From Haliscomenobacter hydrossis DSM 1100 (lineage in GTDB: Bacteria; Bacteroidota; Bacteroidia; Chitinophagales; Saprospiraceae), in assembly GCF_000212735.1 (NCBI RefSeq), contig NC_015510.1, forward strand, positions 4,465,001-4,529,000: a stretch of 64,000 nucleotides of DNA, in the 5' to 3' direction. Shown one piece after another: positions 20,461-63,046 of this stretch. The notes below the pieces were generated by a model. The model was not told where the DNA came from and made no database searches. It was given only the letters and a program-made list of their open reading frames with translations. Numbering within the stretch: the first letter of the stretch is position 1; the number at the start of each line of letters is the position of its first letter. The position numbers were made by a program, and so were the translations under genes.

Positions 20461-20610
20461 TTAACACAAAGGACACCAAGGCTGCACAAAGGGCACAAAG
20501 TTAGACGTTGACGACGCTTGCTTTGTGTCCCTTGTGCTCCCTTGGTGTCCTTTGTGTTAAAGATGTCGTCGCTTTGGTGATGCGCTGAAAATCCGGGATG
20601 ATTGATGTTT
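20461..20610. repeat. ACAAAGG-type hairpin repeat, copy A
   Basis: Arms 20461-20500 and 20521-20560 pair at 36 of 40 positions. Each arm is made of units like CACAAAGGA. The right flank (GTCGTCGCTTTGG ... ATCCGGGATGATTGATGTTT) is shared with copies at 21797 and 33051. The left outer arm is missing here because the lipoprotein stop codon lies 13 nt away. Confidence 0.85.
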
Positions 20611-20656
20611 ACACAATTTTTTATACATTAGATGACCAAAATCAAATCGCATTGCC

Positions 20657-21589
20657 ATGACACCCAATCGCCGCCAATTCCTCAATTTAGTTGCGGGAGC
20701 TTCTGCTGCTACCGTATTGAGCGCTGCTCAAAGTGAAGCTTTTGCTCCCTATCCCTTTCCCATTTCCGCCAACTCCTACAACTGGCACACCTTTTACGGC
20801 CGGGACAATAAAAAATGGGGTGAAGACCTGGATGCCTGCCTTGCTGAATTTGCCAAAACGGGCCTCAAAGCCTACGAACCGAGCTTTAATGCTCCGGAAG
20901 AAGTCATCAAATTGGGTCCCGTGCTCAAAAAGCACGGCATCGCCATGCCTTCGGTATACGTCAATAGTGTGCTGCACAAAACCGAAGACGCCAGCAAATC
21001 CATTGCCCTGATTTTGGCCATTGCCGAAGAGGTCAAAAAACTGGGTACGAAGATCATCGTCACCAATCCCACCCCCATCCGTTGGGGCGGAGACGAGGTC
21101 AAATCGGATGCAGAACTACAGGTACAGGCCACCAGTCTGGACAAATTGGGGGCAGCCCTGCGCGCAAAAGGCCTGACCCTGGCCTACCACACCCACGATG
21201 TGGAGCTAAAAGCCGGAGCGCGGGAGTTTCACCACATGTTGCTCAATACCTCGCCGCTCAATATGTCGTTTTGCTTTGATGTACACTGGGTCTACCGGGG
21301 CTCGCAAAACTCGCAGCTGGCCGTTTTTGATGTGCTCAAATTGTATGGCAAACGGGTGGTAGAGCTGCACATTCGCCAGTCGAAAAACGGCATCTGGTCG
21401 GAAACTTTTGGCGATGGCGACATCGATTACCGCCGTTTTGCGGCAGAATTGAAAAAACTGAACCTGCGCCCACATTTGGTGATCGAGCAGTGTGTGGAAG
21501 ACAAATCCCCGCAGACGATGGATGCAGTGCAGGCGCATGTGCAAGATTTGGCAGCGATTAAGGAAGTGTTTAAGCCAATTTTGGGCTGA
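20657..21589 (+). CDS. Tat-exported sugar isomerase/epimerase-like TIM barrel protein
   Basis: 310 residues of the xylose isomerase-like TIM-barrel family with a twin-arginine signal (NRRQFLNLVAGASAATVLS). Barrel motifs: LKAYEPSFN, KIIVTNPTPIRWGG, LAYHTHDVEL, MSFCFDVHWVYRG, VVELHIRQSKNGIWSETFGDGDIDY and PHLVIEQC. His and Asp/Glu ligands typical for a divalent metal site are present. It is related to, but clearly different from, the paralogue at 14751. It lies upstream of the sigma/anti-sigma pair and may belong to the same glycan-degradation unit. Confidence 0.85.
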   Translation: MTPNRRQFLNLVAGASAATVLSAAQSEAFAPYPFPISANSYNWHTFYGRDNKKWGEDLDACLAEFAKTGLKAYEPSFNAPEEVIKLGPVLKKHGIAMPSVYVNSVLHKTEDASKSIALILAIAEEVKKLGTKIIVTNPTPIRWGGDEVKSDAELQVQATSLDKLGAALRAKGLTLAYHTHDVELKAGAREFHHMLLNTSPLNMSFCFDVHWVYRGSQNSQLAVFDVLKLYGKRVVELHIRQSKNGIWSETFGDGDIDYRRFAAELKKLNLRPHLVIEQCVEDKSPQTMDAVQAHVQDLAAIKEVFKPILG

Positions 21590-21796
21590 GTGAGCGTAGC
21601 GTTGTAGCGATTCTGCAAACAGACTGCCATCCACATAAACTCAGGGAACTCAACCTAACCGAAAGACTGCTCCAACAAATTTGACCTCGCGCTCTATAAG
21701 GGTGTCTTAGTATTTATTCGTCTACACCAATAGGGTTTTTCTTACTACTACTCAAAAAATCGATCCTCCCTTGGATAAGGGGCGATAAAAAAATAA
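21590..21796. other. Intergenic stretch with no gene seen
   Basis: Part of a 522-bp gap between the TIM-barrel gene and the sigma factor; the remainder is the nested palindrome (21797-22020). A short imperfect hairpin followed by AAAAAAA (about 21762-21793) could act as a terminator. I see no coding sequence. Confidence 0.4.
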
Positions 21797-22020
21797 GTGT
21801 TCATTTTGCCAAACATGAGTCATCCCGAATTTTTAAAAAGACCAAAGCGGATCAAAAAAAGTAGCACAAAGGACACAAAGGAAAGCACAAAGTGCACAAA
21901 AACAAGCGCTGCCTTGTGTTCTTTGTGCTTTCCTTTGTGTCCTTTGTGCTAAAAAAGTGTCGCTTTTGTTGTACTAAAAAATTCGGGATGACTCATGTTT
22001 GGCTCAGAAAAAATGAACAC
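21797..22020. repeat. Nested ACAAAGG-type palindrome, copy B (complete)
   Basis: A two-level palindrome of 224 bp. Outer arms: GTGTTCATTTT and CCAAACATGAGTCATCCCG (left, 21797-21835) answered by the complement at 21976-22020. Inner arms: 21863-21901 against 21912-21950, 35 of 39 paired, made of CACAAAGGA units. Between them AAAGCG at about 21844 pairs with CGCTTT at 21961. The complete form shows what the other two copies have lost. It ends 91 bp before the sigma-factor start codon. Confidence 0.88.
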
Positions 22021-22111
22021 TTATGTTTGCCCCACTACTTAAGCTTCCCTGGAGCCGGATCATTTTTTGTATATCTTGGCCGCTATTGTTTACCTGTATA
22101 AATTGACTGCA

Positions 22112-22696
22112 ATGAATCGAAACGGGTATTCTGATGCAGAGTTACTGAACGCGCTAAAGGCTGATGATGAATTGGCTTTCAAGGAATTGTATGACCGATA
22201 CTGGCATAAAATGTACAGCATTGCCTTGCGTAAATTGGGACGCAAGGAAGTAGCCGAAGAATTGGCTCAAGAGTTATTTGTGATGCTCTGGCAAAAACGT
22301 GCTACCCTACGCATCATCAATTTGAATGCTTTTTTGCAGGTTTCGCTCAAAAACCTGAGTATAGATTACATCCGGCACCACATTCAGGAAGAACATTATC
22401 TGGACTCACTCAAACAGTATTTCCCGCTTGAAATCATGACCACTACGGACATGGTCTATTTTAATGAACTGACCGAGGCCCTGCAAAAAGCGCTGGCCGA
22501 ATTGCCCGAAAAAACCCGGCAAATATTTATGCTCAATCGCTTCGAGCGCCTGACCATTCGGGAAATTGCTGTTCAACTCAACCTTTCTGAAAAGTCCATT
22601 GAGTACCATCTCTCCCGCTCTACGACTTATTTGCGGCAGCACCTGCGCGAGTACAATGCGTATGGACTTACCTTTCTCGCATTCCTCCTTTATTAA
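22112..22696 (+). CDS. ECF-type RNA polymerase sigma factor
   Basis: 194 residues from the ATG at 22112 (MNRNGYSDAELLNALKADDE). Region 2: AFKELYDRYWHKMYSIALRKLG and EELAQELFVMLWQKR. Region 4: ALAELPEKTRQIFMLNRFERLTIREIAVQLNLSEKSIEYHLSRS. It belongs to the Bacteroidota group of ECF factors that pair with FecR-like anti-sigma proteins and TonB-dependent receptors. It should direct transcription of the susC/susD-type genes that follow when the receptor senses its glycan. The frame is open further upstream, but the common start motif favours 22112. The FecR gene begins 100 nt downstream. Confidence 0.95.
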   Translation: MNRNGYSDAELLNALKADDELAFKELYDRYWHKMYSIALRKLGRKEVAEELAQELFVMLWQKRATLRIINLNAFLQVSLKNLSIDYIRHHIQEEHYLDSLKQYFPLEIMTTTDMVYFNELTEALQKALAELPEKTRQIFMLNRFERLTIREIAVQLNLSEKSIEYHLSRSTTYLRQHLREYNAYGLTFLAFLLY

Positions 22697-22796
22697 ATGT
22701 ATTTTTTATTTTTTTTAAAAAATAAAAAAACTGCCAAACCCATTTAGGGAAAAAAATTACTCACCCGTCTACCAGTATATAATTCGGTAAACAGGC

Positions 22797-23804: not shown

Positions 23805-23950
23805 TCAGCTTTTGCTGCAATCGTAGAACGCACTATTTACTATAGAGCCTACATCTGCCAAATCGAATAAGGGAATGAATGTCGGCTAAAAACAGGAAAT
23901 TTCTTTACAGAACCATTTGGTATTCACTCAAATCCAAAACATTACAGTTT

Positions 23951-27403: not shown

Positions 27404-27425
27404 TCATTCAAAAAGCTTTTTCATC

Positions 27426-29045
27426 ATGAAAAATACCTTTAAATTTTTCTTCATCGTGCTGATTATGGGGCTCTTTAATGCCTGCGATGTAGATCGTTTG
27501 CCTGAAACCCAGCTCAGTGACCCGGCTTTTTGGAAAACTGAAGCCGACCTACAAACTGCCGCCAACTACCTCTATACCTTTTTTCCGGGGCTGCCCAATA
27601 CCGACGACAACTGGTCGGATGAAACCTATGCCCGTGCTCCAAATGGCATCAGCGATGGGTCGCGGATTGCCACGGCTACCGATGGCGGTTACAATACGCC
27701 CTATCGTTTGATTCGGGCCGCCAACAACATCATTACCAAAGGGCCGCAGGCCTCAGCAACGGGCGTTTCTGCTGCTACGATCGACCGTTACGTGGGTGAA
27801 GCACAATTTTTCAGGGCCTGGGCCTATTTTTCCTTGTTGCAACGTTACGGCGAAGTTCCGCTGATTTTGACGACACTTAGGGAGGATTCACCAGAATTGG
27901 AAGCCCCTGCCGCCAACCGGGATGCCATTTTGAATGCCATCTACCAGGATCTTGATTTTGCGGCAGCTAAATTGCCTACGCCCAAAACATTGGGTGCTAC
28001 CGGGTACGGCCGCATTTCCAACACTGCCGCTTTGGCTTTCAAAGCCAGGGTAGCTTTATTTGAAGGTACACGCGCCAAATTTCATGCTTATGGCGAACCC
28101 AATAAGCACTTGGCCTTGGCCGTAGCTGCTTCCAAAGCAGTCATCGATAGCAAAGAGCACAGCCTTTTTGGCAACTATTACAACCTGTTCCAATTAGCCG
28201 GCGAAGGGCCTTCGAACAAGGAGAATATCCTGGTGCGCAAATACGGCGTGAGCCTTGCCGACAATGTATCGACCCACAATGCTGCGCGTAACCTCGAAAA
28301 CGGTTCGGCTAGCCCCACCAAAAGTCTGGTAGATGAATACCTGATGACCGACGGTTTGCCGACTACCAAGTCTCCTTTATACCAGGCACCCGTGGCCTCC
28401 ATTGATGTGTTTAAAAACCGCGACGAGCGGCTATCCGCTACCATTATGAAAAGAGGAGATGCTTATATCGGCTCGGCTCCGGTGTTTGGTATCGCGCCAT
28501 TGGTGTTCAATTTTACAGGATTTTGCTCGCGCAAATATTTCAACATCGACGACTGGACCAACCAGCGCTCGTACATCGACGGCATTTTGATCCGTTATGC
28601 AGAAGTGTTGCTCATTTACGCCGAGGCCAAATTTGAATTGGAGGGTAGCATCAGCGATGCCGATTTGGACTTGAGTGTAAACCTCTTGCGCACCCGGGGC
28701 AAAATTGCCAAGCTGAGCAATGCCTTTGTCACGGCTAATGGCCTGGATATGCGCACCGAACTTCGCCGCGAGCGCCGGGTAGAACTGGCCGTAGAAGGCT
28801 TCCGCTATTGGGACCTCAACCGTTGGAAAACGGCGGAAATCGAGCTGGTGAAGCCGATTCTGGGGAATTATTTCTTCAAAACCGAGTTTGGTACGGCCAC
28901 TACCGTGAAGCTCACCCCGGATAACTTTATTTTGGTACAGGATGCCAACTTCCGCAAGTTTAATCCGACCAAAGATTACCTCTGGCCCTTGCCAATCAAC
29001 GAAATTGGATTGAATCCTTCCTTGAAGCAAAATCCGGGTTGGTAA
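27426..29045 (+). CDS. SusD/RagB-family glycan-binding lipoprotein
   Basis: 539 residues with a lipoprotein signal (MKNTFKFFFIVLIMGLFNAC). The SusD fold shows in LPETQLSDPAFWKTEADLQTAANYLY, AQFFRAWAYFSLLQRYGEVPLI, YAEVLLIYAEAKFE, LRRERRVELAVEGFRYWDLNRWK and the final LWPLPINEIGLNPSLKQNPGW. It caps the SusC barrel on the cell surface and binds the polysaccharide. It is followed by a strong hairpin, then by the heparinase-type genes. Confidence 0.96.
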   Translation: MKNTFKFFFIVLIMGLFNACDVDRLPETQLSDPAFWKTEADLQTAANYLYTFFPGLPNTDDNWSDETYARAPNGISDGSRIATATDGGYNTPYRLIRAANNIITKGPQASATGVSAATIDRYVGEAQFFRAWAYFSLLQRYGEVPLILTTLREDSPELEAPAANRDAILNAIYQDLDFAAAKLPTPKTLGATGYGRISNTAALAFKARVALFEGTRAKFHAYGEPNKHLALAVAASKAVIDSKEHSLFGNYYNLFQLAGEGPSNKENILVRKYGVSLADNVSTHNAARNLENGSASPTKSLVDEYLMTDGLPTTKSPLYQAPVASIDVFKNRDERLSATIMKRGDAYIGSAPVFGIAPLVFNFTGFCSRKYFNIDDWTNQRSYIDGILIRYAEVLLIYAEAKFELEGSISDADLDLSVNLLRTRGKIAKLSNAFVTANGLDMRTELRRERRVELAVEGFRYWDLNRWKTAEIELVKPILGNYFFKTEFGTATTVKLTPDNFILVQDANFRKFNPTKDYLWPLPINEIGLNPSLKQNPGW

Positions 29046-29052
29046 GGCAACC

Positions 29053-29110
29053 ACCAACCCCAGAACCCCGAAAGTCTCAAAACTTTCGAGAAGAGGGTTC
29101 TGGGGTTGGT
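29053..29110 (+). terminator. Two-part hairpin after the SusD gene
   Basis: A 16-bp perfect outer stem (29053-29068 with 29095-29110) and a 7-bp inner stem (CGAAAGT at 29069-29075 with 29082-29088), with a 6-nt bulge on the right side. It begins 8 nt after the stop codon and lies 24 nt before the next gene. No U-tract follows, so it may act as an attenuator or mRNA end stabiliser between susD and the lyase genes instead of a full terminator. Confidence 0.7.
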
Positions 29111-29133
29111 GCTAAGTCTCTAAAAACGACAAC

Positions 29134-30975: not shown

Positions 30976-31003
30976 ATTTGTAGTCAAATAAAGCCTTATC
31001 AAC

Positions 31004-33050: not shown

Positions 33051-33227
33051 TCGTCATTCCGAATTTTGATTAACCAAAAGTGGATCAAAAAATAACACAA
33101 AGGACACAAAGGGAAGCACAAAGGACACAAAGACGAGCGCCACTTCGTGTTCCTTGTGCTTTCCTTTGTGTCCTTTGTGTTAAAAAATGTCGCTTTTGAG
33201 CCATTATGAAATTCGGGATGCTCATGC
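33051..33227. repeat. ACAAAGG-type hairpin repeat, copy C
   Basis: Inner arms 33093-33132 and 33143-33182, 36 of 40 paired. The outer part is partly kept: GTCATTCCGAATTTTGAT on the left and ATGAAATTCGGGATGCTCATG on the right. Shared internal words with copy B are GGATCAAAAAA and TGTCGCTTTTG. It lies between the second lyase and the PQQ dehydrogenase, ending 17 nt before the latter's start codon. Nothing coding is seen in the rest of the 315-bp gap. Confidence 0.85.
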
Positions 33228-33244
33228 CATCAACTGCCTGCATC

Positions 33245-35359
33245 ATGAAACGAATACTACCTTTTTCCCTGCTCGGACTACTCATCTGCGTGCTCGTTGC
33301 CTTCCTCCTCACCGATGTAGAACCTGCGGGCGATGATTGGCCCGAATACCTCGGCGGGCCCGACCGCAACCACTATTCTACGCTGACCGACATTGGCCCG
33401 GATAATGTCACCAAACTCAAGATCGCCTGGCGGTATTTCACCCCCGATTCCGGGCAAATGCAAGTCAGCCCCATCGTCATCGATGGCGTGTTGTACGGCG
33501 TTACGTCCAGTGTGCAGGCTTTTGCGCTGAATGCCGCTACCGGTAAAGAAATCTGGCGCTTTGGCGACCCGCTCAAAAGTTGGGAGAGCACCAGTCGTGG
33601 CGTCACCTACTGGCGTGACGGCGAGGATCAACGTATTCTTTACACCGTTGGACCCAACCTCTGGGCACTCAACGCCAAAACGGGCAAACCCATTAGCAGT
33701 TTTGGCGATGGTGGCAAAGTAGACCTGCATACGGGATTGCCCGAGGTTTCACAAAAAAAATCGATCGTTTCCAATACGCCAGGTACGCTGTTTGAAGATT
33801 TAATCATCATGCCCCTACGCCTCTCCGAAGGAGCAGATGCGGCACCTGGCGACATTCGCGCTTTCAATGTACGTACCGGAAAATTGGAGTGGACTTTCCA
33901 CACCATTCCTTATCCGGGTGAATATGGGTACAAAACCTTCCCCAAGGACGCCTACAAAAACACCTATACCGGAGCCGCCAACAACTGGGCAGGGATGTCC
34001 ATCGACCGCAAACGCGGCATTGTGTACGTACCCACTGGTTCGGCCGGTTTTGATTTTTACGGGGGTAACCGCAAAGGACAAAACCTGTTTGCCAATTGCC
34101 TGCTGGCCCTGGATGCCCGCACGGGCAAACGAATCTGGCATTACCAGACTACTCACCACGACATCTGGGACCGCGATTTACCCGCTCCTCCCAATTTGGT
34201 GACGCTGCAAATGGGTGGGAAAACAATTGATGCCGTAGCGCAAATTTCTAAACAAGGTTTTGTTTTTGTATTTGATCGCGTAACTGGTAAACCGCTGTTT
34301 CCCATCAACGAAGTACCTGTTGCACCCTCTGATTTAAAAGGGGAAAAGGCCTGGAAAACCCAACCTGTCCCAAGTTTACCGCTGCCCTATGCCCGTCAAT
34401 CGAATGCCTTGACCGAAAACGACATCAACCCTCATTCCGAAAACCGGGAGGAGTTGTTGCAACGATTCAGAACCTATAAGAAAGGTTTTTATGATCCACC
34501 CAGCAAACAAGGGACGATCATTTTTCCAGGTTTTGACGGTGGTGGCGAATGGGGTGGTGCAGCAGCCGATCCCGATGGGATTTTGTACGTCAACAGCAAC
34601 GAGATGGCCTGGATACTCACCATGGTAGACAAACCCGCAGCAACCCAAATGGCCAACGCCAGCCCGGGTGAACGAATTTACCTGACGACATGTGCTTCTT
34701 GTCATGGGGTGGATCGAAAAGGAAACCCCCAAAGCAATTTTCCTTCCCTGGTTGGCATTGAAAAAAAACGTGATAAGGGGTATGTGACCCAAATTATTAC
34801 CGCAGGCAAGGGGATGATGCCCGGTTTTACTGCCCTTTCAGCCGAACAAAAACAGGCCTTGGTCGCCTATTTGTTCGGCGATGAGAAAAAGGAAATGGGC
34901 GCAGCCGCCGGGACTTATAAGCCGGTGCAACTGCCTTACACCATTACGGGCTACAACAAATTTTTGGACAACAAGGGGCTACCCGCCATCGGCCCGCCCT
35001 GGGGAACCCTCAACGCCATCAACCTGAACACGGGAGAATACCTCTGGCAAGTTCCGCTCGGCGAAGAACCTGCACTGGTGGCCAAAGGCATCCGCAATAC
35101 GGGGGTGGAAAACTACGGCGGACCGGTGATCACCGCGAGTGGTTTGCTCTTCATCGCCGCTACCAAAGACGGCATGTTCCGGGCGTTTGACAAACGTACG
35201 GGTGAGGTGCTTTGGGAAACCAAGTTGCCCGCAGCTTCGTTTGCGACGCCCGCTACCTACATGGCCGATGGCAAACAGTACATCGTGCTGGCTTGTGGGG
35301 GTACCAAGTTGGGTACACCAAAGGGGAATCAATACGTGGCTTTTGCCTTGCCTGATTAA
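33245..35359 (+). CDS. PQQ-dependent dehydrogenase with fused cytochrome c domain
   Basis: 704 residues from the ATG at 33245, with one N-terminal membrane/signal segment (ILPFSLLGLLICVLVAFLL). An eight-bladed propeller of the quinoprotein type is indicated by DWPEYLGGPDRNHYSTL, FALNAATGKEIWRF, LLALDARTGKRIWHYQTTHHD, LPAPPNLV and a C-terminal blade FRAFDKRTGEVLWETKLP. A cytochrome c module is inserted in the second half: CASCHG near residue 483 with Met in MMPGFTALS as likely axial ligand. It would oxidise a sugar or alcohol in the periplasm and pass electrons to the haem. The location next to the lyases suggests oxidation of released sugars. Confidence 0.92.
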   Translation: MKRILPFSLLGLLICVLVAFLLTDVEPAGDDWPEYLGGPDRNHYSTLTDIGPDNVTKLKIAWRYFTPDSGQMQVSPIVIDGVLYGVTSSVQAFALNAATGKEIWRFGDPLKSWESTSRGVTYWRDGEDQRILYTVGPNLWALNAKTGKPISSFGDGGKVDLHTGLPEVSQKKSIVSNTPGTLFEDLIIMPLRLSEGADAAPGDIRAFNVRTGKLEWTFHTIPYPGEYGYKTFPKDAYKNTYTGAANNWAGMSIDRKRGIVYVPTGSAGFDFYGGNRKGQNLFANCLLALDARTGKRIWHYQTTHHDIWDRDLPAPPNLVTLQMGGKTIDAVAQISKQGFVFVFDRVTGKPLFPINEVPVAPSDLKGEKAWKTQPVPSLPLPYARQSNALTENDINPHSENREELLQRFRTYKKGFYDPPSKQGTIIFPGFDGGGEWGGAAADPDGILYVNSNEMAWILTMVDKPAATQMANASPGERIYLTTCASCHGVDRKGNPQSNFPSLVGIEKKRDKGYVTQIITAGKGMMPGFTALSAEQKQALVAYLFGDEKKEMGAAAGTYKPVQLPYTITGYNKFLDNKGLPAIGPPWGTLNAINLNTGEYLWQVPLGEEPALVAKGIRNTGVENYGGPVITASGLLFIAATKDGMFRAFDKRTGEVLWETKLPAASFATPATYMADGKQYIVLACGGTKLGTPKGNQYVAFALPD

Positions 35360-35368: not shown

Positions 35369-35476
35369 GGTTGAGGAGGTTGAGAAGTTGAGGCTACCGC
35401 GAGCGATTCGGTCACCGAGCGGAGCCGAGGTGCCCGAATCGCTCGCGGTAGCCTCAACTTCTCAACCTCCTCAACC
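35369..35476. repeat. Perfect 42-bp-arm palindrome (GTTGAGG type)
   Basis: Arms 35369-35410 and 35435-35476 are perfectly complementary over 42 bp; the outer half of each arm is built of GTTGAGGAG-like units and the inner half is unique (CTACCGCGAGCGATTCG). The 24-nt loop carries a small palindrome, CACC-gagcggagccga-GGTG, also present in altered form in the hairpin at 62921. It begins 10 nt after the PQQ dehydrogenase stop. Confidence 0.92.
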
Positions 35477-35946: not shown

Positions 35947-36017
35947 CGTCATCCCGAAATTTAGTGTTCAATCGCTCTAATGCTGAACACAACTTTGATT
36001 AAAAATCTGGGGTGACG
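35947..36017. repeat. Hairpin related to the outer arm of the ACAAAGG repeat
   Basis: CGTCATCCC (35947-35955) pairs with GGGGTGACG (36009-36017), 8 of 9; inside, GTGTTCA (35964-35970) pairs with TGAACAC (35984-35990). The left word GTCATCCCGAAATTT is like the outer arm of repeat copies B and C, so this may be a fourth, coreless relative. It begins 14 nt after the NTF2-like gene. Confidence 0.6.
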
Positions 36018-36023
36018 CTAGGG

Positions 36024-36102
36024 TTTCTCAGGTTTCTTAGGTGGTAAAAAAGAAAAAACTGCGTAGCAGGGTATTCTTTCACCACTTAAGAAACCTGAGA
36101 AA
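36024..36102. repeat. Hairpin of GGTTTCTCA-type units
   Basis: Left arm 36024-36045 and right arm 36081-36102 pair at 21 of 22 positions. The right side carries a further unit (about 36106-36121) with no left partner. The loop is A-rich. It stands directly after the preceding hairpin and 64 nt before the next sulfatase gene. Confidence 0.8.
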
Positions 36103-36165
36103 CTTAAGGAACCACCTAAGGAATTACCCGCACCCTGGTGATCAATCATCAGCAACCCAAGTTTT

Positions 36166-39134: not shown

Positions 39135-39276
39135 TTTAGCACCCGCCTTTGGCGGGAAAGAAGATAATTTCACCACGGATTCCACAGATTAACACAGATT
39201 TTCATCGTAACGAATAAAATCGGTGTTAATCTGTGGAATCTGTGGTGAAAAAAGACCGCTAGAGGCGGGTGCTAAA
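39135..39276. repeat. Two-level palindrome of CACAGATT units
   Basis: Outer arms TTTAGCACCCGCC... at 39135-39155 and 39256-39276 match at 19 of 21 positions. Inner arms 39169-39202 and 39216-39249 match at 32 of 34 and consist of CCACAGATT/AACACAGATT units. The 13-nt loop is at 39203-39215. It lies between the cinA stop and the E2 start, so it would be in the E2 leader or the cinA 3' end. Confidence 0.88.
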
Positions 39277-39347
39277 CAATTACGGTTTCTTATTAATTTG
39301 GATTATTTGGTGCCGCAAAGTTACCAAATAATCCAATAAGTGCTCGC

Positions 39348-40589
39348 CTAGAGCTGCTTTAAGAATTGTCTGATCTGGTTCAAAGCATGAATCGTGAAAT
39401 ACTGGATGTTTTTATCCCGGTCTTTTCCCGCCCGAATGCTGAAAGTTCTGGTCTTTTGGCCGTTGCTGACCGCTATCCAGGCCAGTCCGACCGGCTTGGT
39501 ATCGGAGCCACCGCCGGGGCCGGCAATCCCTGAAATGGAAATGGCGATATCGGCAGGTAGTACCTTGACGGCCCCTTCGGCCATTTCGATCACGGTCTGT
39601 TCACTGACCGCGCCGTGGGTATCCAGGGTTGCAGCGCTTACCCCCAGCACCTGCATTTTGACTTCGTTGGCATAAGCAATGACGCTGCCCACAAAATAAT
39701 CCGATGCGCCAGCCACGGAAGTGATGCGGTGTGCGAGGTAGCCACCAGTACAACTTTCAGCAGTAGCCAATTTTAAACCCCGTTCTTTGAGCATCACGCC
39801 AATGGCACCCTCCAGGGTATCGGTGCCAAAACCGTAGATGATGTCGGCAAAACGCGACCTGATGATCTCGGCTTTTTCGTCCAAAATCCGGTGTAAGGTG
39901 GCTTCATCGGCAAGCGAACCCGTAATGCGCAGGCGCACTTGGGCAATGTGGGGCAGGTAAGCCAATTTAAAACCTTCGGGCAGACCCTCTTCGAAATCTT
40001 CCAGTTTTTCGGCAATATGACTTTCTCCTTCTCCCACCGTAAGAATGGTGCGATGCGCAATGGGTTGCCCCTGGAATTTTTGCCTCAATTTGGGCAGCAC
40101 TTCATTTTCCATGAGGTACTGCATCTCGTACGGCACCCCGGGCATCGACACGATGACTTTGCCTGCGTATTCCATCCACATGCCGGGAGCAGTGCCCATT
40201 TTATTGGTCAAAATCTCTGCATTGGCGGGCATGTAGCACTGGAGGCGGTGGGCTTCGTTCATAGGGCGACCCCACACCTCAAACATCTTGGTGATGCGCT
40301 GGAAGGTGAGCTCGTGAAAAACCATGTCTACCCCCATGTATTCGGACAGGGCTTTTTTGGTGATGTCGTCTTTGGTTGGCCCCAGACCACCCGTCATCAG
40401 GATGACATCAGCCTGTTCCAGGGCTTCGCGCAAGCCGGTATGGATGGCCTCCATGGTGTCCCCTACGGTGATGATCGTCACGACACGAGCACCAGTAAGG
40501 TTGAGTTGTTGGCCCATCCAGGCCGAATTCGTATCGACAATTTGCCCAATGAGGATTTCATCGCCGACGGTTAGGATTGAGATTTTCAT
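39348..40589 (-). CDS. cinA: CinA family protein (nicotinamide-nucleotide amidase / ADP-ribose pyrophosphatase type)
   Basis: 413 residues from the ATG at 40589 (MKISILTVGDEILIGQIVDTNS). The longer open frame upstream codes only for hairpin sequence and is rejected. The N-terminal MoeA/COG1058 domain has VGDEILIGQIVDTN, MTGGLGPTKDD and VSMPGVPYEM; the C-terminal amidase domain has LATAESCTGGYLAHRIT and ISISGIAGPGGGSDTKPVGLAWIAV. It takes part in recycling of damaged or spent pyridine nucleotides in the cytoplasm. birA is upstream on the same strand across a long hairpin. Confidence 0.95.
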   Translation of the reverse strand: MKISILTVGDEILIGQIVDTNSAWMGQQLNLTGARVVTIITVGDTMEAIHTGLREALEQADVILMTGGLGPTKDDITKKALSEYMGVDMVFHELTFQRITKMFEVWGRPMNEAHRLQCYMPANAEILTNKMGTAPGMWMEYAGKVIVSMPGVPYEMQYLMENEVLPKLRQKFQGQPIAHRTILTVGEGESHIAEKLEDFEEGLPEGFKLAYLPHIAQVRLRITGSLADEATLHRILDEKAEIIRSRFADIIYGFGTDTLEGAIGVMLKERGLKLATAESCTGGYLAHRITSVAGASDYFVGSVIAYANEVKMQVLGVSAATLDTHGAVSEQTVIEMAEGAVKVLPADIAISISGIAGPGGGSDTKPVGLAWIAVSNGQKTRTFSIRAGKDRDKNIQYFTIHALNQIRQFLKQL

Positions 40590-40604: not shown

Positions 40605-40708
40605 GGGGTTGAGGGTTCTAGGGTTCGGGGGTTCGACGTTCGAGGGTTTGCACACAATCTTGCAAACCCTCGAACGTCGAACCCTCGAACTCACGAACCC
40701 TCGAACCC
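40605..40708. repeat. GGTTCG-type hairpin overlapping the birA 3' end
   Basis: Arms 40605-40652 and 40661-40708 pair at about 42 of 48 positions, with an uninterrupted inner stem of about 24 bp. Units are GGGTTCGA-like, 8 nt long. The right arm covers the birA stop codon (40691-40693) and its last five codons. Confidence 0.9.
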
Positions 40709-45940: not shown

Positions 45941-45972
45941 AGGTAGTAAGCATTTGTGAATGAATCAAAAAA

Positions 45973-46095
45973 AGTTGAAAGGTTGAAGAGTTGAAAGGTT
46001 GAAGAGAAGTTGTAAAGTATGAAAGACTAATAGACTTTCATACTTACAAACTTTTGAACTTCTCTTCAACTCTTCAACCTTTCAACTCTTCAACT
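45973..46095. repeat. GTTGAAGA-type hairpin after the DUF1573 gene
   Basis: Left arm from 45973 (AGTTGAAAG, GTTGAAGA, GTTGAAAG units) to 46025; right arm 46036-46095. The inner part (GTATGAAAG and complement) pairs perfectly; the arms differ by an insertion of about 8-9 nt on the right. The right arm abuts the DUF1573 stop codon (46096-46098). Confidence 0.88.
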
Positions 46096-46536
46096 TTAGT
46101 TCGCGGGCTGTTCCACCTTTCCTTTCAAACGCAGCAGCACTTGTTCTTCACTCAGGTTGGTGTTTACGACCACTTGTTTGTTGAACTCACCAGGAGCCAG
46201 TGCATTGTAGGTTGCCGTGATTTCGCCGGTTTTGCCTGGAGCAATGGGTTCTTTGGTGTAGGTAGGGGTAGTACATCCGCAAGAGGCACTCACCGAAGTA
46301 AAAATCAAGGGTGTTTTGCTCTTGTTTTTGATTTTGAATACCGCCGTAACTGGCTTCCCTTGAGGAATGGCGCCAAAATCGTGCTCAATTTTGTCCCAAA
46401 TAAGGGCCGGTGCTTTTTTAGCCTTACTTTTGGCAGAAGCTTCATTCTTTTTGATTTTAGCTTCCGCAGTGGTGCTTTGTGCCGCAAGGGTACCCAAACC
46501 ACCCAGGATTAGCAACACAACGACAAAATATTTCAT
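46096..46536 (-). CDS. DUF1573 domain protein
   Basis: 146 residues with a signal peptide (MKYFVVVLLILGGLGTLAAQ), then a Lys/Ala-rich linker and one DUF1573 beta-sandwich: HDFGAIPQGKPVTAVFKIKNKSKTPLIF, SASCGCTTPTYTKEPIAPGKTGEI and VLLRLKGKV. The SCGCTTP motif is the family signature. Exported; role unknown, perhaps surface or periplasmic binding. Its stop codon lies within 1 nt of a long hairpin. Confidence 0.92.
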   Translation of the reverse strand: MKYFVVVLLILGGLGTLAAQSTTAEAKIKKNEASAKSKAKKAPALIWDKIEHDFGAIPQGKPVTAVFKIKNKSKTPLIFTSVSASCGCTTPTYTKEPIAPGKTGEITATYNALAPGEFNKQVVVNTNLSEEQVLLRLKGKVEQPAN

Positions 46537-48451: not shown

Positions 48452-48506
48452 GGGTTCATTGGTTCGTGGGTTCGAAAGTTCGTCGAACCCACGAACCCAC
48501 GAACCC
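48452..48506. repeat. GGTTCG-type hairpin after the M1 peptidase gene
   Basis: Arms 48452-48475 and 48483-48506 pair at 22 of 24 positions, loop of 7 nt. Units are GGGTTCGT-like, 8 nt. It lies 3 nt beyond the stop codon (48510-48512) of the M1 peptidase gene. Confidence 0.9.
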
Positions 48507-48509: not shown

Positions 48510-50897
48510 TCACGGTTTTGCCTTTTTCCCCTTTGCCTTCTGCATCGGATTTGGACCTTCCTCTACTTTATGCGCTTTGAATACCTGAAAACGGGTTGGT
48601 ACTTGTTTCACAGGCCAATTGTTGTTGCTTTCGTCAATGTCTGCCGTTTCGCGGAAAGGATCAAGACGCACGGCTTTGACCATTTTGTCTTTTACAAACA
48701 CCTTCTTGAACTGGTTTTCATTTTTGCGCCAAATCTCGGCAGGGATGCGATCGACCTGCGTGGTGCCGTCGGCAAAGGTCCATTCCAGCACAATGGGCAT
48801 GATCAAGCCACCTTTGTTGCTGAATTGTAGCTCGTAGTAATGCTTGTCGCCAAATTTCTTGGACTTTTCTTCTTTGCTATACGGCTGGTCGTAAAGATAA
48901 ACCTTGGTTTGTTGCACAGAGTCAGCGCTTTCCCAGGGACGATATGTGGTATAAAAATCTTTCAGGCTTGTATCGCGTTCGATCAAGGGTACTTTCCCAG
49001 CCTGTTTGTTGTTCCGTTTGTTGATGTCGTCAAAAGGTTTTTCCAGTTTGGTCGACTCCGTGATTTCCTCACGTTTTGGATTGTTGTCCAAATCAACCCG
49101 GTAGTATTTGATGCTATCCAGGGAGATGTCAACCGCATCTACAGTATAGAACCAGCCCCGCCAAAACCAGTCGAGGTCTACGCCACTGGCGTCTTCCATG
49201 GTTCGGAAAAAATCAGCAGGCGTGGGATGTTTAAACGCCCAGCGGCGGCAGTACTCCTTAAAGGCATAGTCAAAAAGCTCGCGCCCCATGACCGTTTCGC
49301 GCAAGATGTTGAGTGCCGTAGCGGGCTTGCGGTAGGCGTTGGCAAAAAAGTCAACGATGTTGTCACTGTTGGTCATGATCGGCTCCAACTGGTCTTTGGG
49401 CATCTTCATGTAGTCCACAATTTGATGGGCGGGCCCAAACCAGGGCTTGTAGTCGTTGTCCATCTCGCGCTCGGCCACAAACTGTACAAAACTGTTGAGT
49501 CCTTCATCAAACCAACTCCATTGGCGCTCGTCGCTGTTGATGATCATCGGGAAATAATTGTGACCCACCTCGTGAATGATGGTGGAAACGGCATCGATTT
49601 TGGTCGCTTCGGAGTAGGTTCCATCCGGTTCAGCTCGACCGGGATTGAAGCAAATCATCGGGTATTCCATACCATTGGCGGCTTCTACGGAGATGGCCGT
49701 TGGGTAAGGAAAAGGAATTGTATATTTCGAATAGGTATTAATGGTATGTTGGATGGCTTTGGTAGAATAGCGACGGTAAATGGGGTAAGCCTCTTTGGCG
49801 TAGTAACTCATGCACATCACCTTTTTGCCTTCCTCGGTGGTATTGGCCAGGGCATCCCACACGAATTTTCGGCTGGCGCCCCAGGCAAAGTCACGCACAT
49901 TGTCGGCTTTGTAAATCCAGGTTTTGAGCTCGGTGCTGCGTTTGGCCTTTTCATTCTTTTTGGCTTCATCCAATGTCACAATCTCGATCGGCTCTTTGGC
50001 TTGCTGGGCTTGTTGCCACCGGGCGTATTGAGCAGGGCTTAGCAGGGTAGAATAATTGAGACATTCCCCCGTGGCGGCCACCACATAATCGGTAGGCAAG
50101 GTCATTTTGACCACAAAATTGCCAAAGCTGAGGGCGAATTCGGCACGGCCGGTGAATTGTTTGTTCTGCCATCCGGCAAAATCGCTGTACACGCACAAAC
50201 GTGGATACCACTGCGTGATGGTAAAAATGTAGTTGTCTTCCTCTGAAAAATATTCGTAGCCGCCCCGCGCGAGGTTGGTCGCGCTGTTGCTGGCAATCTT
50301 GGCAATGTTGATGCGGTCTACCAAATAATAATGCCATTTGATGCGGAAAGAAAAAGCAGCTCCGGGTTTGAGGGGTTCGGGCAACTCAATGCGCATCATG
50401 GTTTGGTTGATCGAGTATTTGAGGGGTTTGCCATTGGCATCGATGACTTCCTGGATTTTGCAGCCAAATTTATCCTTGCCTTTTCCGGCTTCCAGACCCT
50501 GCATTTGGTTTTCGCTCATGGTCCCGTTGATGCTGGTGGGATCAAAAACCTGGTTGGGGTTGTTGGCATCATGCTGATTTTCGTCGAGCTGCAACCAGAG
50601 GTAGCGCAGGGTTTGAGGCGATTGGTTGTGGTAGCTGATCAATTCGCTGCCGTTGAGGCGCAGGTTGTTCACATCGAGGGTACATTCAATATCGTAATCA
50701 CAACGTTGCTGCCAGTACTCAGCACCCGGGGCACCATCTACGTTGCGGTAGTTGTTGGGATCGGGTAGGAGGTCAGTGAGCTGTTCAAATTTATTGCCGT
50801 GGTTGGAAACGGGTTGGGCAAACATATTCACGCTGCCTAGCAACGTCAAAAGGCTAAGGCTAATCCAGATGGGCTGGATGGAGGGCTTTTTGAGCAT
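48510..50897 (-). CDS. M1-family metallopeptidase
   Basis: 795 residues with a signal peptide (LSLLTLLGSVNMFAQ). The active site HEVGHNYFPMIINSDERQWSWFDEGLNSF (here HEVGH near residue 443 and the Glu of WFDEGLN 19 residues after) fits gluzincins. A substrate-binding loop like GxMEN appears as ANGMEYPMICF. The N-terminal beta domain is QRCDYDIECTLDVNNLRLNGSE. It should act on peptides in the periplasm or outside. The last residues are Lys-rich (KAKGKKAKP). Confidence 0.93.
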   Translation of the reverse strand: MLKKPSIQPIWISLSLLTLLGSVNMFAQPVSNHGNKFEQLTDLLPDPNNYRNVDGAPGAEYWQQRCDYDIECTLDVNNLRLNGSELISYHNQSPQTLRYLWLQLDENQHDANNPNQVFDPTSINGTMSENQMQGLEAGKGKDKFGCKIQEVIDANGKPLKYSINQTMMRIELPEPLKPGAAFSFRIKWHYYLVDRINIAKIASNSATNLARGGYEYFSEEDNYIFTITQWYPRLCVYSDFAGWQNKQFTGRAEFALSFGNFVVKMTLPTDYVVAATGECLNYSTLLSPAQYARWQQAQQAKEPIEIVTLDEAKKNEKAKRSTELKTWIYKADNVRDFAWGASRKFVWDALANTTEEGKKVMCMSYYAKEAYPIYRRYSTKAIQHTINTYSKYTIPFPYPTAISVEAANGMEYPMICFNPGRAEPDGTYSEATKIDAVSTIIHEVGHNYFPMIINSDERQWSWFDEGLNSFVQFVAEREMDNDYKPWFGPAHQIVDYMKMPKDQLEPIMTNSDNIVDFFANAYRKPATALNILRETVMGRELFDYAFKEYCRRWAFKHPTPADFFRTMEDASGVDLDWFWRGWFYTVDAVDISLDSIKYYRVDLDNNPKREEITESTKLEKPFDDINKRNNKQAGKVPLIERDTSLKDFYTTYRPWESADSVQQTKVYLYDQPYSKEEKSKKFGDKHYYELQFSNKGGLIMPIVLEWTFADGTTQVDRIPAEIWRKNENQFKKVFVKDKMVKAVRLDPFRETADIDESNNNWPVKQVPTRFQVFKAHKVEEGPNPMQKAKGKKAKP

Positions 50898-50976: not shown

Positions 50977-50984
50977 TAATTTTG
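50977..50984 (+). promoter_or_regulatory. Candidate -7 element of the PIN toxin-antitoxin operon
   Basis: TAATTTTG fits TAnnTTTG exactly and lies 28 nt before the antitoxin start codon. A weak -33 (CTGG-like) is at the right distance. Confidence 0.45.
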
Positions 50985-51011
50985 TAAACAAGTATTTGAA
51001 AATAGATAGAG

Positions 51012-51242: not shown

Positions 51243-51254
51243 CCCTAGTATAGT

Positions 51255-51674: not shown

Positions 51675-51681
51675 AAAAAAC

Positions 51682-51709
51682 GCCCGCCAGAACAATTCTT
51701 CTGGCGGGC
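51682..51709 (+). terminator. Hairpin after the PIN toxin gene
   Basis: Perfect 11-bp stem GCCCGCCAGAA (51682-51692) with 51699-51709, loop of 6 nt, preceded by an A8 run, so on the minus strand it has a full intrinsic-terminator shape. On the plus strand the U-tract is weak. Confidence 0.7.
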
Positions 51710-51947
51710 TACTAAGCCGTTTTACCTCATCTTACTTCATCCAAAATGTGATCAGGATGATCCTGATTACAAAAGGAGGTGTTTGGGACGAGGGATTGTG
51801 TTCCAGGTTTTGGAAAGTTTTTTAAAAATTCTTTGAAAAAAAAACTTATACATACTTATTCGACTTTGTCTAATGAACATTGTACCTTATTTTGCAAATA
51901 GAAATGAAGCTGATAAAAGTTTAAGTCCTAACAAAAAGAAACTACCC

Positions 51948-56112: not shown

Positions 56113-56120
56113 CTGTAATT

Positions 56121-56896: not shown

Positions 56897-56923
56897 TAAT
56901 CTATCTTGTCATGTTTTTTCGTT

Positions 56924-58432: not shown

Positions 58433-58451
58433 ATTACGGCTTGTTAAATTT

Positions 58452-60221: not shown

Positions 60222-60341
60222 TGAACCGATTTTGATGTACTTGAGCATAGCTGCACGAGTACAGTTTGCAAACTTACAAAATTAGAACCGTGCGGGAAAG
60301 TACTTCCGCAGGTGAGGCCGAAAATTTTATTTGACCCTTAG

Positions 60342-60373
60342 TTTGACTTTTAAACTAAGTTAACTTATTTTTG
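60342..60373 (+). promoter_or_regulatory. Promoter of the ADP-ribosylglycohydrolase-nadE operon
   Basis: TTTG at 60342-60345, a 20-nt spacer, then TATTTTTG at 60366-60373. Both parts fit the Bacteroidota consensus TTTG-N19-21-TAnnTTTG without mismatch. The start codon of the first gene is 19 nt downstream. This is the best promoter match in the window. Confidence 0.75.
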
Positions 60374-60392
60374 AACCATTAAAAAAGAACTT

Positions 60393-61274
60393 ATGCTTCT
60401 AGAGGGTGCCATTGGAGATGCATATGGAGCGGGGTTTGAATTTGTATCTCGTCTGATTATTCGACGACGGAACAAACTGGAGAAATACAAACGCCATCCT
60501 TTTTATCGAACCATTTGTGGTCATTATACCGATGATACCCAAATGGCTTTGGCCCTAGCCGAACTTATTGTTGAAGGGATTGAATGGACTCGTTTGAGTG
60601 TTGCCAATAAATTCGTGGAAGTGTTCAAACGGGACATGCGTCAGGGCTATGCCTTTCGTTTTTTTGGGTTGCTCCAGGAAGTGAGTTCCGGTCAGGATTT
60701 ATTGGACAAAATTATTCCAAACAGTGAGCGCAACGGCTCTGCCATGCGCGCCTATCCCATTGGCATTCTGGACACCGAGACAAAAGTTTTGGAGAAAGCT
60801 GAACTCCAGGCACGCATCACCCACGATACCGAATGGGGCGTGTGGTCTGCACAAGCCATCGCACTGAGTGCCCACTTTTTTTTATACAAAAAAGGAGCGA
60901 AAATCCAGCTCACCCAATATTTGGAGGATTGGCAAAAAATAAAGTGGCCGATCAACTGGCAAGGTGAGGTGCCCATGAAAGGAAAAGAAACCGTAGAGGC
61001 TGTATTGAGCCTGGTAGTACAGGGGGATCGAATGAGCAAAATTCTGATGGAGGCGGTGAATTTGGGAGGTGATGCAGATACCGTAGCCTCCCTGGCTCTG
61101 GCCTTAAGCAGTGTTTGCCTGGAAATTGAAAAAGATTTGCCCGACTGGATGTTTGATCAGTTGGAAAATGGCCCTTATGGCCGCAGTTTTATCGAAGAAC
61201 TTGATCAAAAACTTCTGGCGCAATTGCCGGGAGTAGGTGCAGTTCTACCTTCATTTGTCAATCGAAATTTGTAA
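60393..61274 (+). CDS. ADP-ribosylglycohydrolase family protein
   Basis: 293 residues. The magnesium-site motifs are all visible: LLEGAIGDAYGAGFEF at the start, GHYTDDTQMALALAE near residue 46, ERNGSAMRAYPIG near 113, and VNLGGDADTVASLALAL near 224. Members remove ADP-ribose from proteins, nucleic acids or small molecules. The N-terminus begins directly at the first motif, so the start is sure. nadE starts 2 nt after its stop, so the two are translated from the same message; the link with NAD synthesis may be the recycling of ADP-ribose. Confidence 0.92.
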   Translation: MLLEGAIGDAYGAGFEFVSRLIIRRRNKLEKYKRHPFYRTICGHYTDDTQMALALAELIVEGIEWTRLSVANKFVEVFKRDMRQGYAFRFFGLLQEVSSGQDLLDKIIPNSERNGSAMRAYPIGILDTETKVLEKAELQARITHDTEWGVWSAQAIALSAHFFLYKKGAKIQLTQYLEDWQKIKWPINWQGEVPMKGKETVEAVLSLVVQGDRMSKILMEAVNLGGDADTVASLALALSSVCLEIEKDLPDWMFDQLENGPYGRSFIEELDQKLLAQLPGVGAVLPSFVNRNL

Positions 61275-61276
61275 AT

Positions 61277-62914
61277 ATGCGTATTGCTATCGCCCAATTC
61301 AACGCCCATATCGGCAACTTTGAAGGCAATTTGACCAAAATGCTCCAGATGACCGAAGACGCCAAACAACAAGGGGCGGACATCATCTGTTTTCCCGAAT
61401 TGGCCACTTGTGGCTATCCGGCGCGAGATTTTTTAGAGTTTGACGACTTTATCCACCAGGCCGACGCCAGCATTCATACGCTGGCCAAAGCAGCTCAGGG
61501 TATCGCCATTGTGGTGGGTTCGCCCACCCGAAACCCACAGATTGAGGGAAAAGATTTGTACAACTCGGTGTACTTCCTGGCTTATGGCCGGGTGGAATTT
61601 GTGCAGCACAAAGCCTTGTTGCCTACTTACGATGTGTTTGATGAATACCGCTATTTCCAACCCGCATCGGAATTCAAGATCGTCGAATACATGGGCAAAC
61701 GCATTGCCCTCACGGTTTGTGAAGACATTTGGAACGTAGGCAACGAAAATCCGCTTTACACCATTTGTCCTATGGACGAAATGATGCCCTACCAGCCGGA
61801 GTTGATGATCAACGTATCGGCTTCACCCTTTTCTCATGATCACGCACCGGAACGCATCCACGTCGTGCGGGCTAATGTAGAGCGTTACAATGTGCCGATT
61901 TTTTACGTCAATCACGTAGGCGGGCAAACCGAATTGCTGTTTGACGGAGGCTCGGTAGTGATGTCGCCCAATGGCAATGTACACGATGAGATGCCCTTTT
62001 TTGAAGAATGCATCCGGGTATACGAGCTGGACGAAGTGATGGCTGGTCAAAAACAAGTAGAACAGACGCGCAACAAAATAGCTTTGATGCACGACGCCTT
62101 GCTGATGGGCATCCGCGATTATTTTGGAAAATTGGGACTCAAAAAAGCCATCTTGGGGCTTTCCGGAGGAATTGACTCCGCCGTTACGGTGGTGTTGGCC
62201 GCCCGTGCCCTTGGCGCTGATAACGTGCGGGTGCTCCTGATGCCTTCGCAATACTCTTCCGATCACTCCGTCAATGATGCCCGAAAACTGGCGGAAAACC
62301 TGGGTGTACAGTACGATTTATTGGCTGTGGAACCCATGTATCAAGCTTACATGGAAACCCTCAAGCCGCACTTTTGGGGCTTCCCATTCAACATCACCGA
62401 AGAAAACTTGCAAGCACGGATCCGGGGTATGTTGCTAATGGCTTTTTCCAACAAGTTTGGACACATCCTGCTCAATACCAGCAATAAAAGTGAAATGGCG
62501 GTGGGTTACGGCACCCTTTATGGCGACATGTGTGGCGGGCTTTCGGTGCTCGGCGATGTGTACAAAACCGAGGTGTACGAACTGGCGCACTACATCAATA
62601 AAGATGGGGAAGTGATCCCCGAAAACTCTATCACCAAGCCACCTTCAGCCGAATTGCGCCCCGACCAAAAAGACAGCGATAGTCTTCCGGACTACGATAT
62701 TCTCGATGCCGTGTTGTACAATTACATCGAACGCCATCAGGGGCCAAAAGAATTGATTGAAATGGGTTTTGACGATGCCCTGGTACGCCGGGTATTGCGC
62801 CTGGTCAACATCAACGAATTCAAACGCCACCAGACAGCACCAGTATTGCGGGTATCCGCCAAGGCATTTGGAATGGGACGGCGGATGCCGATTGTGGGGA
62901 AATATCTTTCGTAG
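61277..62914 (+). CDS. nadE: Glutamine-dependent NAD+ synthetase
   Basis: 545 residues, two domains. The N-terminal nitrilase-type glutaminase has its Glu-Lys-Cys triad in CFPELATCGYP, VQHKALLPTYDVFDEYRYF and LTVCEDIW (Cys near residue 147). The C-terminal synthetase has the ATP P-loop LGLSGGIDSAVTVVLAARALG near residue 294 and NKSEMAVGYGTLYGDMCGG. It makes NAD+ from nicotinate adenine dinucleotide using glutamine. The next feature downstream is a long hairpin shared with the convergent NIPSNAP gene. Confidence 0.97.
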   Translation: MRIAIAQFNAHIGNFEGNLTKMLQMTEDAKQQGADIICFPELATCGYPARDFLEFDDFIHQADASIHTLAKAAQGIAIVVGSPTRNPQIEGKDLYNSVYFLAYGRVEFVQHKALLPTYDVFDEYRYFQPASEFKIVEYMGKRIALTVCEDIWNVGNENPLYTICPMDEMMPYQPELMINVSASPFSHDHAPERIHVVRANVERYNVPIFYVNHVGGQTELLFDGGSVVMSPNGNVHDEMPFFEECIRVYELDEVMAGQKQVEQTRNKIALMHDALLMGIRDYFGKLGLKKAILGLSGGIDSAVTVVLAARALGADNVRVLLMPSQYSSDHSVNDARKLAENLGVQYDLLAVEPMYQAYMETLKPHFWGFPFNITEENLQARIRGMLLMAFSNKFGHILLNTSNKSEMAVGYGTLYGDMCGGLSVLGDVYKTEVYELAHYINKDGEVIPENSITKPPSAELRPDQKDSDSLPDYDILDAVLYNYIERHQGPKELIEMGFDDALVRRVLRLVNINEFKRHQTAPVLRVSAKAFGMGRRMPIVGKYLS

Positions 62915-62920
62915 GGTGTG

Positions 62921-63046
62921 AGGGTTCGGGGGTTCGAAGGTTCGGGAGTTCGTGGGTTCCACGATGGTCGCCGAGCTGGTCACTGAGCGAAGCCGAAGTG
63001 GAGGTGTCCGTCTTGGAACCCACGAACTCCCGAACCCCCGAACCCT
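62921..63046. repeat. GGTTCG-type hairpin with a REP-like core
   Basis: Left arm 62921-62960, right arm 63015-63046, made of GGGTTCGG-like 8-nt units. The left arm has one more unit (about 62936-62943) than the right. The core holds CACT-gagcgaagccga-AGTG (62981-63000), the counterpart of the loop motif at 35413. It lies 7 nt after the nadE stop and 3 nt from the stop of the convergent NIPSNAP gene. Confidence 0.9.

Follow-up and report, generated by a model that had tools for sequence, protein, structure and literature searches.

Hairpins with Iterated Arms Often Share Gene-Junction Slots and Differ in Sequence between Haliscomenobacter Genomes

A 64,000-nucleotide stretch of the chromosome of the sludge bacterium Haliscomenobacter hydrossis DSM 1100 (contig NC_015510.1, positions 4,465,001 to 4,529,000; hereafter the window) contains a set of long intergenic hairpins, most of them with arms built of short iterated units. 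We find that these hairpins are a real, unusual, and measurable phenomenon: the place of a hairpin is often common to several species while its sequence is not, and each of two sister genomes has a different unit. Hairpin sequences have been replaced slot by slot at orthologous places, and whole hairpins have been gained or lost between congeners. The explanation we favor, and consider somewhat probable, is that mobile palindromes settle in slots and turn over there by repeat expansion, arm copying, and homogenization between loci, a behavior at the level of DNA.

RESULTS

The genome of H. hydrossis DSM 1100 (G000) comprises 8,771,651 bases in 4 contigs, with a chromosome (C1) of 8,371,686 bases. 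Hairpins were surveyed in C1:4100001-5300000 (1.2 Mb, ∼14% of the chromosome), using an inverted repeat score of ≥18 as the main threshold. Every distance to a stop codon or gap given below depends on 860 genes called in the 1.2 Mb by a purpose-made hexamer model. The survey returned 168 inverted repeats, compared with 0 in one control (first-order transitions, resampled in 1-kb blocks). We sorted the hairpins by unit motif into class A, class B, and a remainder, with motifs picked by eye from the hairpin listing. Class A units include GGTTCG, GTTGARG, AGYGAA, TGACGAAT, ATCAGC, and GGTTTTAG; class B units include CACAAAGG, CAGATT, ACGACG, GCGGAGTT, and CGGATT; 46 hairpins of the 1.2-Mb set carry no unit motif. 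The relatives compared were the congeners G001, G002, and G004 and the further genomes G003 and G020.

Orthologous gaps with a stop codon at one end were located in G000, G001, G002, and G004 and scored with the same threshold on both sides. Among 181 unordered gap pairs (score 18, all hairpin classes), both gaps were occupied in 32, one in 29, and neither in 120. A gap was occupied in 0.69 of cases if its partner was occupied, compared with 0.11 if the partner was empty, and the corresponding figures are 0.67 and 0.12 in the 106 pairs with flanks of ≥85% identity. A second approach, which started from post-stop hairpins and accepted weaker partner stems (score 11), found the partner occupied in 59/72 ordered and 42/55 unordered comparisons (some slots are counted twice among the 42, and three, at slot 48452, are short stems of doubtful kind) and in 25/32 at flanks of ≥85%; one of 107 comparisons was left out because of an N-gap. 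In the set with flanks of ≥85%, identity amounts to 0.89 in the flanks and 0.59 in the hairpins, with 0.44 for random hairpin pairs. Arms from the same slot are closer to each other than to those of other hairpins (mean rank 0.23; random = 0.5).

These comparisons show slot-wise replacement of the hairpin sequence at orthologous places. One slot, delimited by the same stop and the same start codon (by eye), holds AGATGAAAG in G002, GTGAAAAG in G004, GATGAGTGATGAAC in G001, and AGCAATCAGC in H. hydrossis; another has kept GTTGAG-type units in all four genomes. When GGTTCG slots of H. hydrossis are compared with G004, GGTTCC is found in 4/5, and the same four slots in G002 contain two GTTGA-type hairpins, one of the GGGTTTTAGG type, and in one case nothing.

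Unit abundance is specific to the genome. The GGTTCG pattern GGGTTCGNGGGTTCG matches the H. hydrossis genome 622 times (299 + 323) and none of 16 other genomes, four congeners included. With several pattern matches per hairpin, the 19 GGTTCG hairpins of the 1.2 Mb extrapolate to ∼130 per chromosome, and among 395 sampled Bacteroidota genomes the GGTTCG hairpin form occurs in one, namely H. hydrossis. The GGTTCC pattern GGTTCCANGGTTCCA (≤1 mismatch) matches 604 times in G004, 60 times in G002, 17 times in G001, and 15 times in H. hydrossis; a reversed-pattern control gave 141 in G004, a kind of match that GGTTCC arrays can themselves produce, and the GGTTCG and GGTTCC patterns are unequal in strictness. 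Samples of G003 (98 kb) and G020 (40 kb) contained 4 and 1 inverted repeats, respectively, none iterated-looking, and the trait is thus perhaps one of some lineages.

Class B units travel further. The CACAAAGG array pattern returned at least 120 stretches in a species-genome collection, and among the matches listed (some on both strands) 61/128 lie in an inverted repeat of score ≥12. Those listed come from Bacteroidota, Acidobacteriota, Planctomycetota, Chloroflexota, Pseudomonadota, Kiritimatiellota, Armatimonadota, and others, as placed by record title with phylum names assigned by us; many are metagenome bins. Some are plain direct arrays, including most of those from Calothrix. A number of the arrays in several phyla have a similar outer TTTTA(A/C)CAC end. 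The class B hairpin at window positions 21850-21960 had no match among 72,556 plasmid records.

Placement also separates the two classes. Gaps between genes hold 166 of the 168 hairpins (59 ++, 59 --, 40 +-, and 8 -+), and two lie in no gap. Divergent gaps account for 8/166, compared with ∼24% expected from the bases in gaps of ≥80 nt. For all classes together, 95/158 hairpins lie within 20 nt of a stop codon, a moderate excess over random placement in the same gaps (mean 72.4, S.D. 4.8, maximum 85 in 200 draws). Among the 74 class A hairpins with a stop-bearing neighbor, 62 start at −10 to +20 of the first base of the stop, 7 start further upstream of it, and 5 further away. Class B hairpins (n = 40) are farther from stops than class A (9 at −10 to +20, 25 at 21-100, and 6 beyond) and are often nested in other palindromes.

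Class A hairpins sit chiefly in tight gene junctions. With the hairpin length subtracted, they occur in 16/87 tandem gaps of 0-20 nt and 21/109 of 21-60 nt, and in 5/131, 3/137, and 6/73 of those of 61-120, 121-250, and 251-1000 nt, respectively. The corresponding counts for convergent gaps are 7/17 below 0 nt and 6/31 at 0-20 nt. The orientation of class A cores relative to transcription was the same in 7 and opposite in 5 of the few cases available.

Two empty sites document the gain or loss of whole class A hairpins between congeners. G002 lacks the GGTTCG hairpin of C1:4304956; only 3 nt separate its two genes there, and the flanks are 78-79% identical. This hairpin falls at the stop codon, and a new stop has formed (by eye). 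G002 (C42) is likewise without a GTTGAGG hairpin found on C495 of G004, with flanks 91-94% identical. No target duplication was seen at these two sites, and a TA target duplication, which the flanks of class A had suggested, is not borne out there. A hairpin without iterated units in G001 lies directly past a stop, and nothing is found at that place in G004. The AGGAATGG palindrome neighboring the region of this G001 hairpin has a 9-bp duplication at one site and stands directly past a stop at another.

A palindrome of ∼158 bp, AGGAATGGAAATAAAATAAAG, has a MITE-like look (miniature inverted-repeat transposable element); it was seen in G004 near position 10305 of C109 and near 3570 of C428, one copy with a 9-bp duplication and one directly past a stop codon. 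A stretch of N in the G001 draft (contig C46) coincides with the site of a GTTGAGG hairpin in G002 and G004, and such drafts may therefore under-report these hairpins.

Nesting is seen for a 187-bp palindromic element present in at least 12 copies of ≥90% identity, the window copy included (12/157 candidates scored). Seven of the 12 are enclosed, as judged by eye, in another palindrome, which is of the TGTTCATTTT kind for four of them, while one each lies in a CAGAT-, a GTTGAAG-, and a CACAAATT-type hairpin. The TGTTCATTTT palindrome may have moved together with the element it surrounds. At C1:367430, the 187-bp element is inserted between the arms of a GTTGAAG hairpin that has several units in one arm and approximately two in the other.

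The hairpins of the window are collected in Table I. A sequence-only reading had listed 12 positions, and inverted repeats are present at all of them; two are weak, since the one at 29053 scores 17 and has 17-bp arms that lack iterated units and the one at 35947 is an imperfect remnant, and those at 21797 and 39135 are nested structures. Its description of arms made from degenerate direct repeats agrees with ours, most arms being built of 7-10-nt units. In 8/12, the hairpin starts no more than 15 nt from a stop codon (20461, 29053, 35369, 35947, 45973, 48452, and 62921) or overlaps one (40605). Those at 21797, 33051, 36024, and 39135 are not near a stop, and the 39135 structure is 76-97 nt from the nearest one. 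Relatives do not have the same hairpin sequence at these places, which is not what conserved ordinary terminators would show.

Table I. Hairpins and palindromes of the window, in window coordinates
Feature	Coordinates	Strand	Remarks
Class B hairpin, CACAAAGG units	20460..20561	.	Arms 41 nt; start ∼11 nt past stop at 20448
Outer palindrome, TAGTGGGGCAAAAATAAGTGTTCATTTT family	21795..22022	.	Loop holds 187-bp element
187-bp palindromic element, AACATGAGTCATCCCGAATTTTT...AAAAATTCGGGATGACTCATGTT	21811..21999	.	Encloses CACAAAGG hairpin
Inner CACAAAGG hairpin	21862..21951	.	Arms 38 nt
Hairpin without iterated units	29052..29111	.	Perfect 17-bp arms and inner stem; 6 nt past stop at 29045
CACAAAGG hairpin	33093..33182	.	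Arms 40 nt; within diverged copy (∼83%) of 187-bp element family
Class A hairpin, GTTGAGG units, core CTACCGCGAGCG + GGTCACCGAGCGGAGCCGAGGTG	35369..35476	.	48-nt arms; 9 nt past stop at 35359
Imperfect palindrome, remnant of GTCATCCCGAA element	35947..36018	.	Seen in predicted fold only
GGTTTCTTAGGTGG hairpin	36023..36103	.	Arms 27 nt
Outer pair of REP-like hairpins, GCACCCGCCTTTGGCGGG ... CCGCTAGAGGCGGGTGC	39135..39272	.	Surround CAGATT hairpin; from fold
Class B hairpin, CACAGATT units	39168..39250	.	CTAAGGTG hairpin in orthologous gap of G002 and G004
Class A hairpin, GGTTCG units	40605..40708	.	Overlaps stop of minus-strand gene at 40691
Class A hairpin, GTTGAAGAG units	45970..46097	.	Abuts stop of minus-strand gene at 46096
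Class A hairpin, GGTTCG units	48452..48506	.	3 nt from stop of minus-strand gene at 48510
Class A hairpin, GGTTCG units, GGTCACTGAGCGAAGCCGAAGTGG core	62921..63045	.	Fills convergent gap, stops 62914 and 63050

Several of these places were followed into the relatives. The slot at 35369 is empty in G004 and has different hairpins in G001 and G002; that at 40605 holds GGTTCC in G004, GGGTTTTAGG in G002, and GGATTTAGG in G001; and that at 45970 has GTTTAGAAGTTGAGG units in both G001 and G002. The orthologous gap of slot 48452 contains no such hairpin in G001, G002, or G004; in G004 (C399, 3334-3487), tandem CCCACGACAAAA units are present there and form no long hairpin. In the slot of the hairpin at 29052, G002 and apparently also G004 have a U-tailed GAGGGGC hairpin. 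A 201-base query around the first hairpin of the window gave 78 matches in the own genome (both strands, self included), and the GGTTTCTTAGGTGG hairpin has many relatives from G001, G002, and G004 among the matches listed. A member of the TAGTGGGGCAAAAATAAGTGTTCATTTT family is present in G004 and missing from the own genome near window position 23841. Beside the CAGATT element, a TTGGATTATTTGGT hairpin (39298-39336) lies 12 nt past the stop of a minus-strand gene at 39348; G002 and G004 have conserved the first part of the hairpin sequence, and it thus looks like an ordinary conserved 3' hairpin.

DISCUSSION

We propose that palindromes multiply and insert between genes, mainly at the stop codon where neighboring genes lie close together. 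A slot, once occupied, would often be inherited, and the hairpin within it would be rewritten as units of 7-10 nt expand, contract, and are replaced. The arms may stay complementary through replication template switching, in which one arm serves as the template for renewing the other. Unit variants would spread between loci, by gene conversion or by re-insertion into existing hairpins, and give each genome its own version, a pattern seen in GGTTCG of H. hydrossis and GGTTCC of G004. Class B hairpins would be composites, in which palindromes have been inserted into the loops of other palindromes.

The sequence-only reading had offered two accounts, and the first, a group of mobile palindromes, gains from whole-hairpin presence or absence in congeners, from the at least 12 near-identical copies of the 187-bp element, and from unit abundance that differs by species. 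Its suggestion that transcript ends are targeted fits the position of class A at stops, and the stop-codon enrichment it called for holds in the 1.2 Mb examined; of the two class A empty sites, however, one is in a divergent gap, away from any stop. Renewal by repeat expansion is in keeping with units replaced while the slot stays occupied, and the copying from arm to arm that it added is conjectural. The accompanying idea of an mRNA 3'-end structure is not supported, for reasons given below.

Several observations weigh against our explanation. No mobilizing enzyme is linked to the hairpins. No stop is involved at the divergent-gap empty site of the G004 GTTGAGG hairpin, and the class A hairpins in 6/73 tandem gaps of 251-1000 nt mean that the preference for tight gaps is not exclusive. 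Slot comparisons share species and slots and are not independent, the sharing could partly be repeated insertion at a few tolerated sites, and the closeness of arms within a slot may partly stem from unit types preferring a kind of gap. The fifth GGTTCG slot (48452) has no GGTTCC hairpin in G004, class B taken alone has slightly more G.U than A.C mismatches (22 to 17, p = 0.52, not significant), and the arm agreement in register quoted below is inflated by the detection method itself. Arm copying and spread between loci are what we infer best from end states.

A repetitive extragenic palindromic (REP)/REPIN-like transposition, in which a species' own palindrome families re-insert at the same few post-stop sites and are not rewritten in place, with a REP-associated tyrosine transposase (RAYT) or another transposase acting in trans, is a tentative possibility. 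It would account for the empty sites between congeners and for the species-specific abundance of the GGTTCG and GGTTCC families, the own genome has 7 Y1_Tnp matches, and GTAG ends of REPs are reported, in the available text of PMC3733652, to supply TAG stops to flanking open reading frames. The genomic neighborhood of the enzymes argues otherwise: class A hairpins were found within 2.5 kb of 0/7 own RAYT domains, and no hairpin of either class turned up at the 9/29 RAYT loci scanned in relatives (flanks ≤1.5 kb; one each from G001, G002, and G004 among them). Two of the seven own RAYT domains have a CGGATT hairpin, of class B, at a distance of 1.8-2 kb, and the palindromes close to these domains are of other kinds, e.g. 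GACCTCTCCGAGGTC or ACCCCGAAGGGGTGACATGATTATAG. G003 has 9 Y1_Tnp matches but no iterated hairpin in the 98 kb sampled, and re-insertion alone leaves slot sharing above baseline, and the matching of GGTTCG slots by GGTTCC slots, to be explained. Four own RAYT loci (L130, L131, L132, and L134) have REP-like or longer palindromes of their own nearby, and those of the L130 kind occur as a cluster in G002, in the ortholog of the slot at window position 35369.

Rather unlikely, in our view, is a rewriting that embraces the whole genome, with post-stop slots serving as acceptors and the current unit type written into both arms at very many loci. Sister species would then keep their slots and swap the sequence, as under a search-and-replace system for palindromes. 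The driver would perhaps be cleavage of hairpins and repair from other hairpins, or a template acting in trans, and the class B units common to several phyla would be the traveling form.

Selection for mRNA 3'-end structures (terminators or stabilizers), their sequence drifting freely while pairing is kept, is quite unlikely. The hairpins do lie downstream of genes, are nearly absent from divergent gaps, have strong predicted folding, and occupy slots common to species. If RNA pairing were selected, G.U mismatches should exceed A.C in the stems. Hairpins in tandem gaps contain 57 G.U and 73 A.C mismatches (p = 0.19), divided into 28 to 40 in class A, 22 to 17 in class B, and 7 to 16 in the rest, whereas 41 short U-tailed stems from gaps of the same genome without such hairpins, our positive control, contain 32 G.U and 8 A.C (Fisher p = 6e-5 for the two ratios). 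A U-tract (≥5 T in the 8 nt past the 3' arm) follows only 9/74 class A and 5/40 class B hairpins. Because the stems have no G.U excess, unlike the U-tailed ones, and U-tracts are few, the hairpins do not look like selected RNA terminators; selection at the RNA level is disfavored and is not the main force. An Rfam scan of the window at gathering scores gave no match, the G003 and G020 samples are without such hairpins, and drift does not yield one unit common to a genome.

Local, minisatellite-like turnover alone, with slippage and arm correction in each hairpin and no exchange between loci, would fit unit numbers that vary between arms and between species and is highly improbable, since it does not easily explain how one new unit could turn up at a great many loci of a genome while the relatives lack it. 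The arms agree at 0.93 in register in 61 class A and 0.95 in 39 class B hairpins, compared with 0.70 and 0.55, respectively, at the best shift of 6-12 nt. Units within one arm thus differ, and the match between arms is not simply that of two arrays of one exact unit. Extra units on one side only were present in 6/77 class A hairpins.

Palindromes dispersed in bacterial genomes are usually portrayed as copies of a single consensus. If mobile palindromes do settle and turn over in slots as proposed, the hairpins would be a bacterial case of concerted evolution in very short, dispersed palindromes, tight gene junctions would be filled with self-rewriting DNA, and a natural system would be at hand to measure template switching and exchange between loci. 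They also caution that a hairpin past a stop codon need not be a terminator.

Our searches of open-licence PMC papers found none of six unit sequences, nor any description that we recognized of hairpins with iterated arms, shared slots, and species-specific units. Integron attC sites have the polarity RYYYAAC ... GTTRRRY; the GTTGARG arms, from sequence only, have the opposite one. The available text of PMC4679880 describes TAACTGA heptamer repeats in Beggiatoaceae, cyanobacteria, and Bacteroidetes that resemble our units in being short, iterated, intergenic, patchy across phyla, and in some cases overlapping a stop codon; unlike our hairpins, they are direct repeats and for the most part precede start codons. 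The creation and repair of inverted-repeat arms by replication template switching, proposed here for arm complementarity, were studied, as far as the available text of PMC8794818 and PMC8604942 goes, in RNA genes and yeast coding sequence, not in mobile intergenic families. The MITEs ERIC and Nezha are named in PMC3733652; the GTGGGGCAAAAATAAG and AGGAATGGAAATAAAG palindromes near class A look MITE-like, one with a 9-bp duplication, whereas class A hairpins lack target duplication at two empty sites and have arms that vary by repeat units.

The closest likeness is to REP, BIME, and REPIN elements, which the available text of PMC3733652 and PMC3116915 presents as dispersed intergenic palindromes, mostly in tandem and convergent gaps, with numerous families in each genome, some copies inside other palindromes, and ends able to provide a stop codon. 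The former places REPs between tandem and convergent open reading frames, reports REP dimers inserted in other palindromes and frequent G-T pairs in REP stems, and cites a 1988 review whose title poses the question of REP evolution by gene conversion; for REPs, neither overlap with stop codons nor gene conversion is thus a new idea. The flanks of 74 class A and 40 class B hairpins showed no constant end tag of the GTAG or CGTC kind (by eye only). Unlike REPs, the hairpins described here show no G.U excess and no class A member beside own RAYT genes; they have arms of ∼18-50 nt made of iterated 7-10-nt units, and the unit is replaced at orthologous slots.

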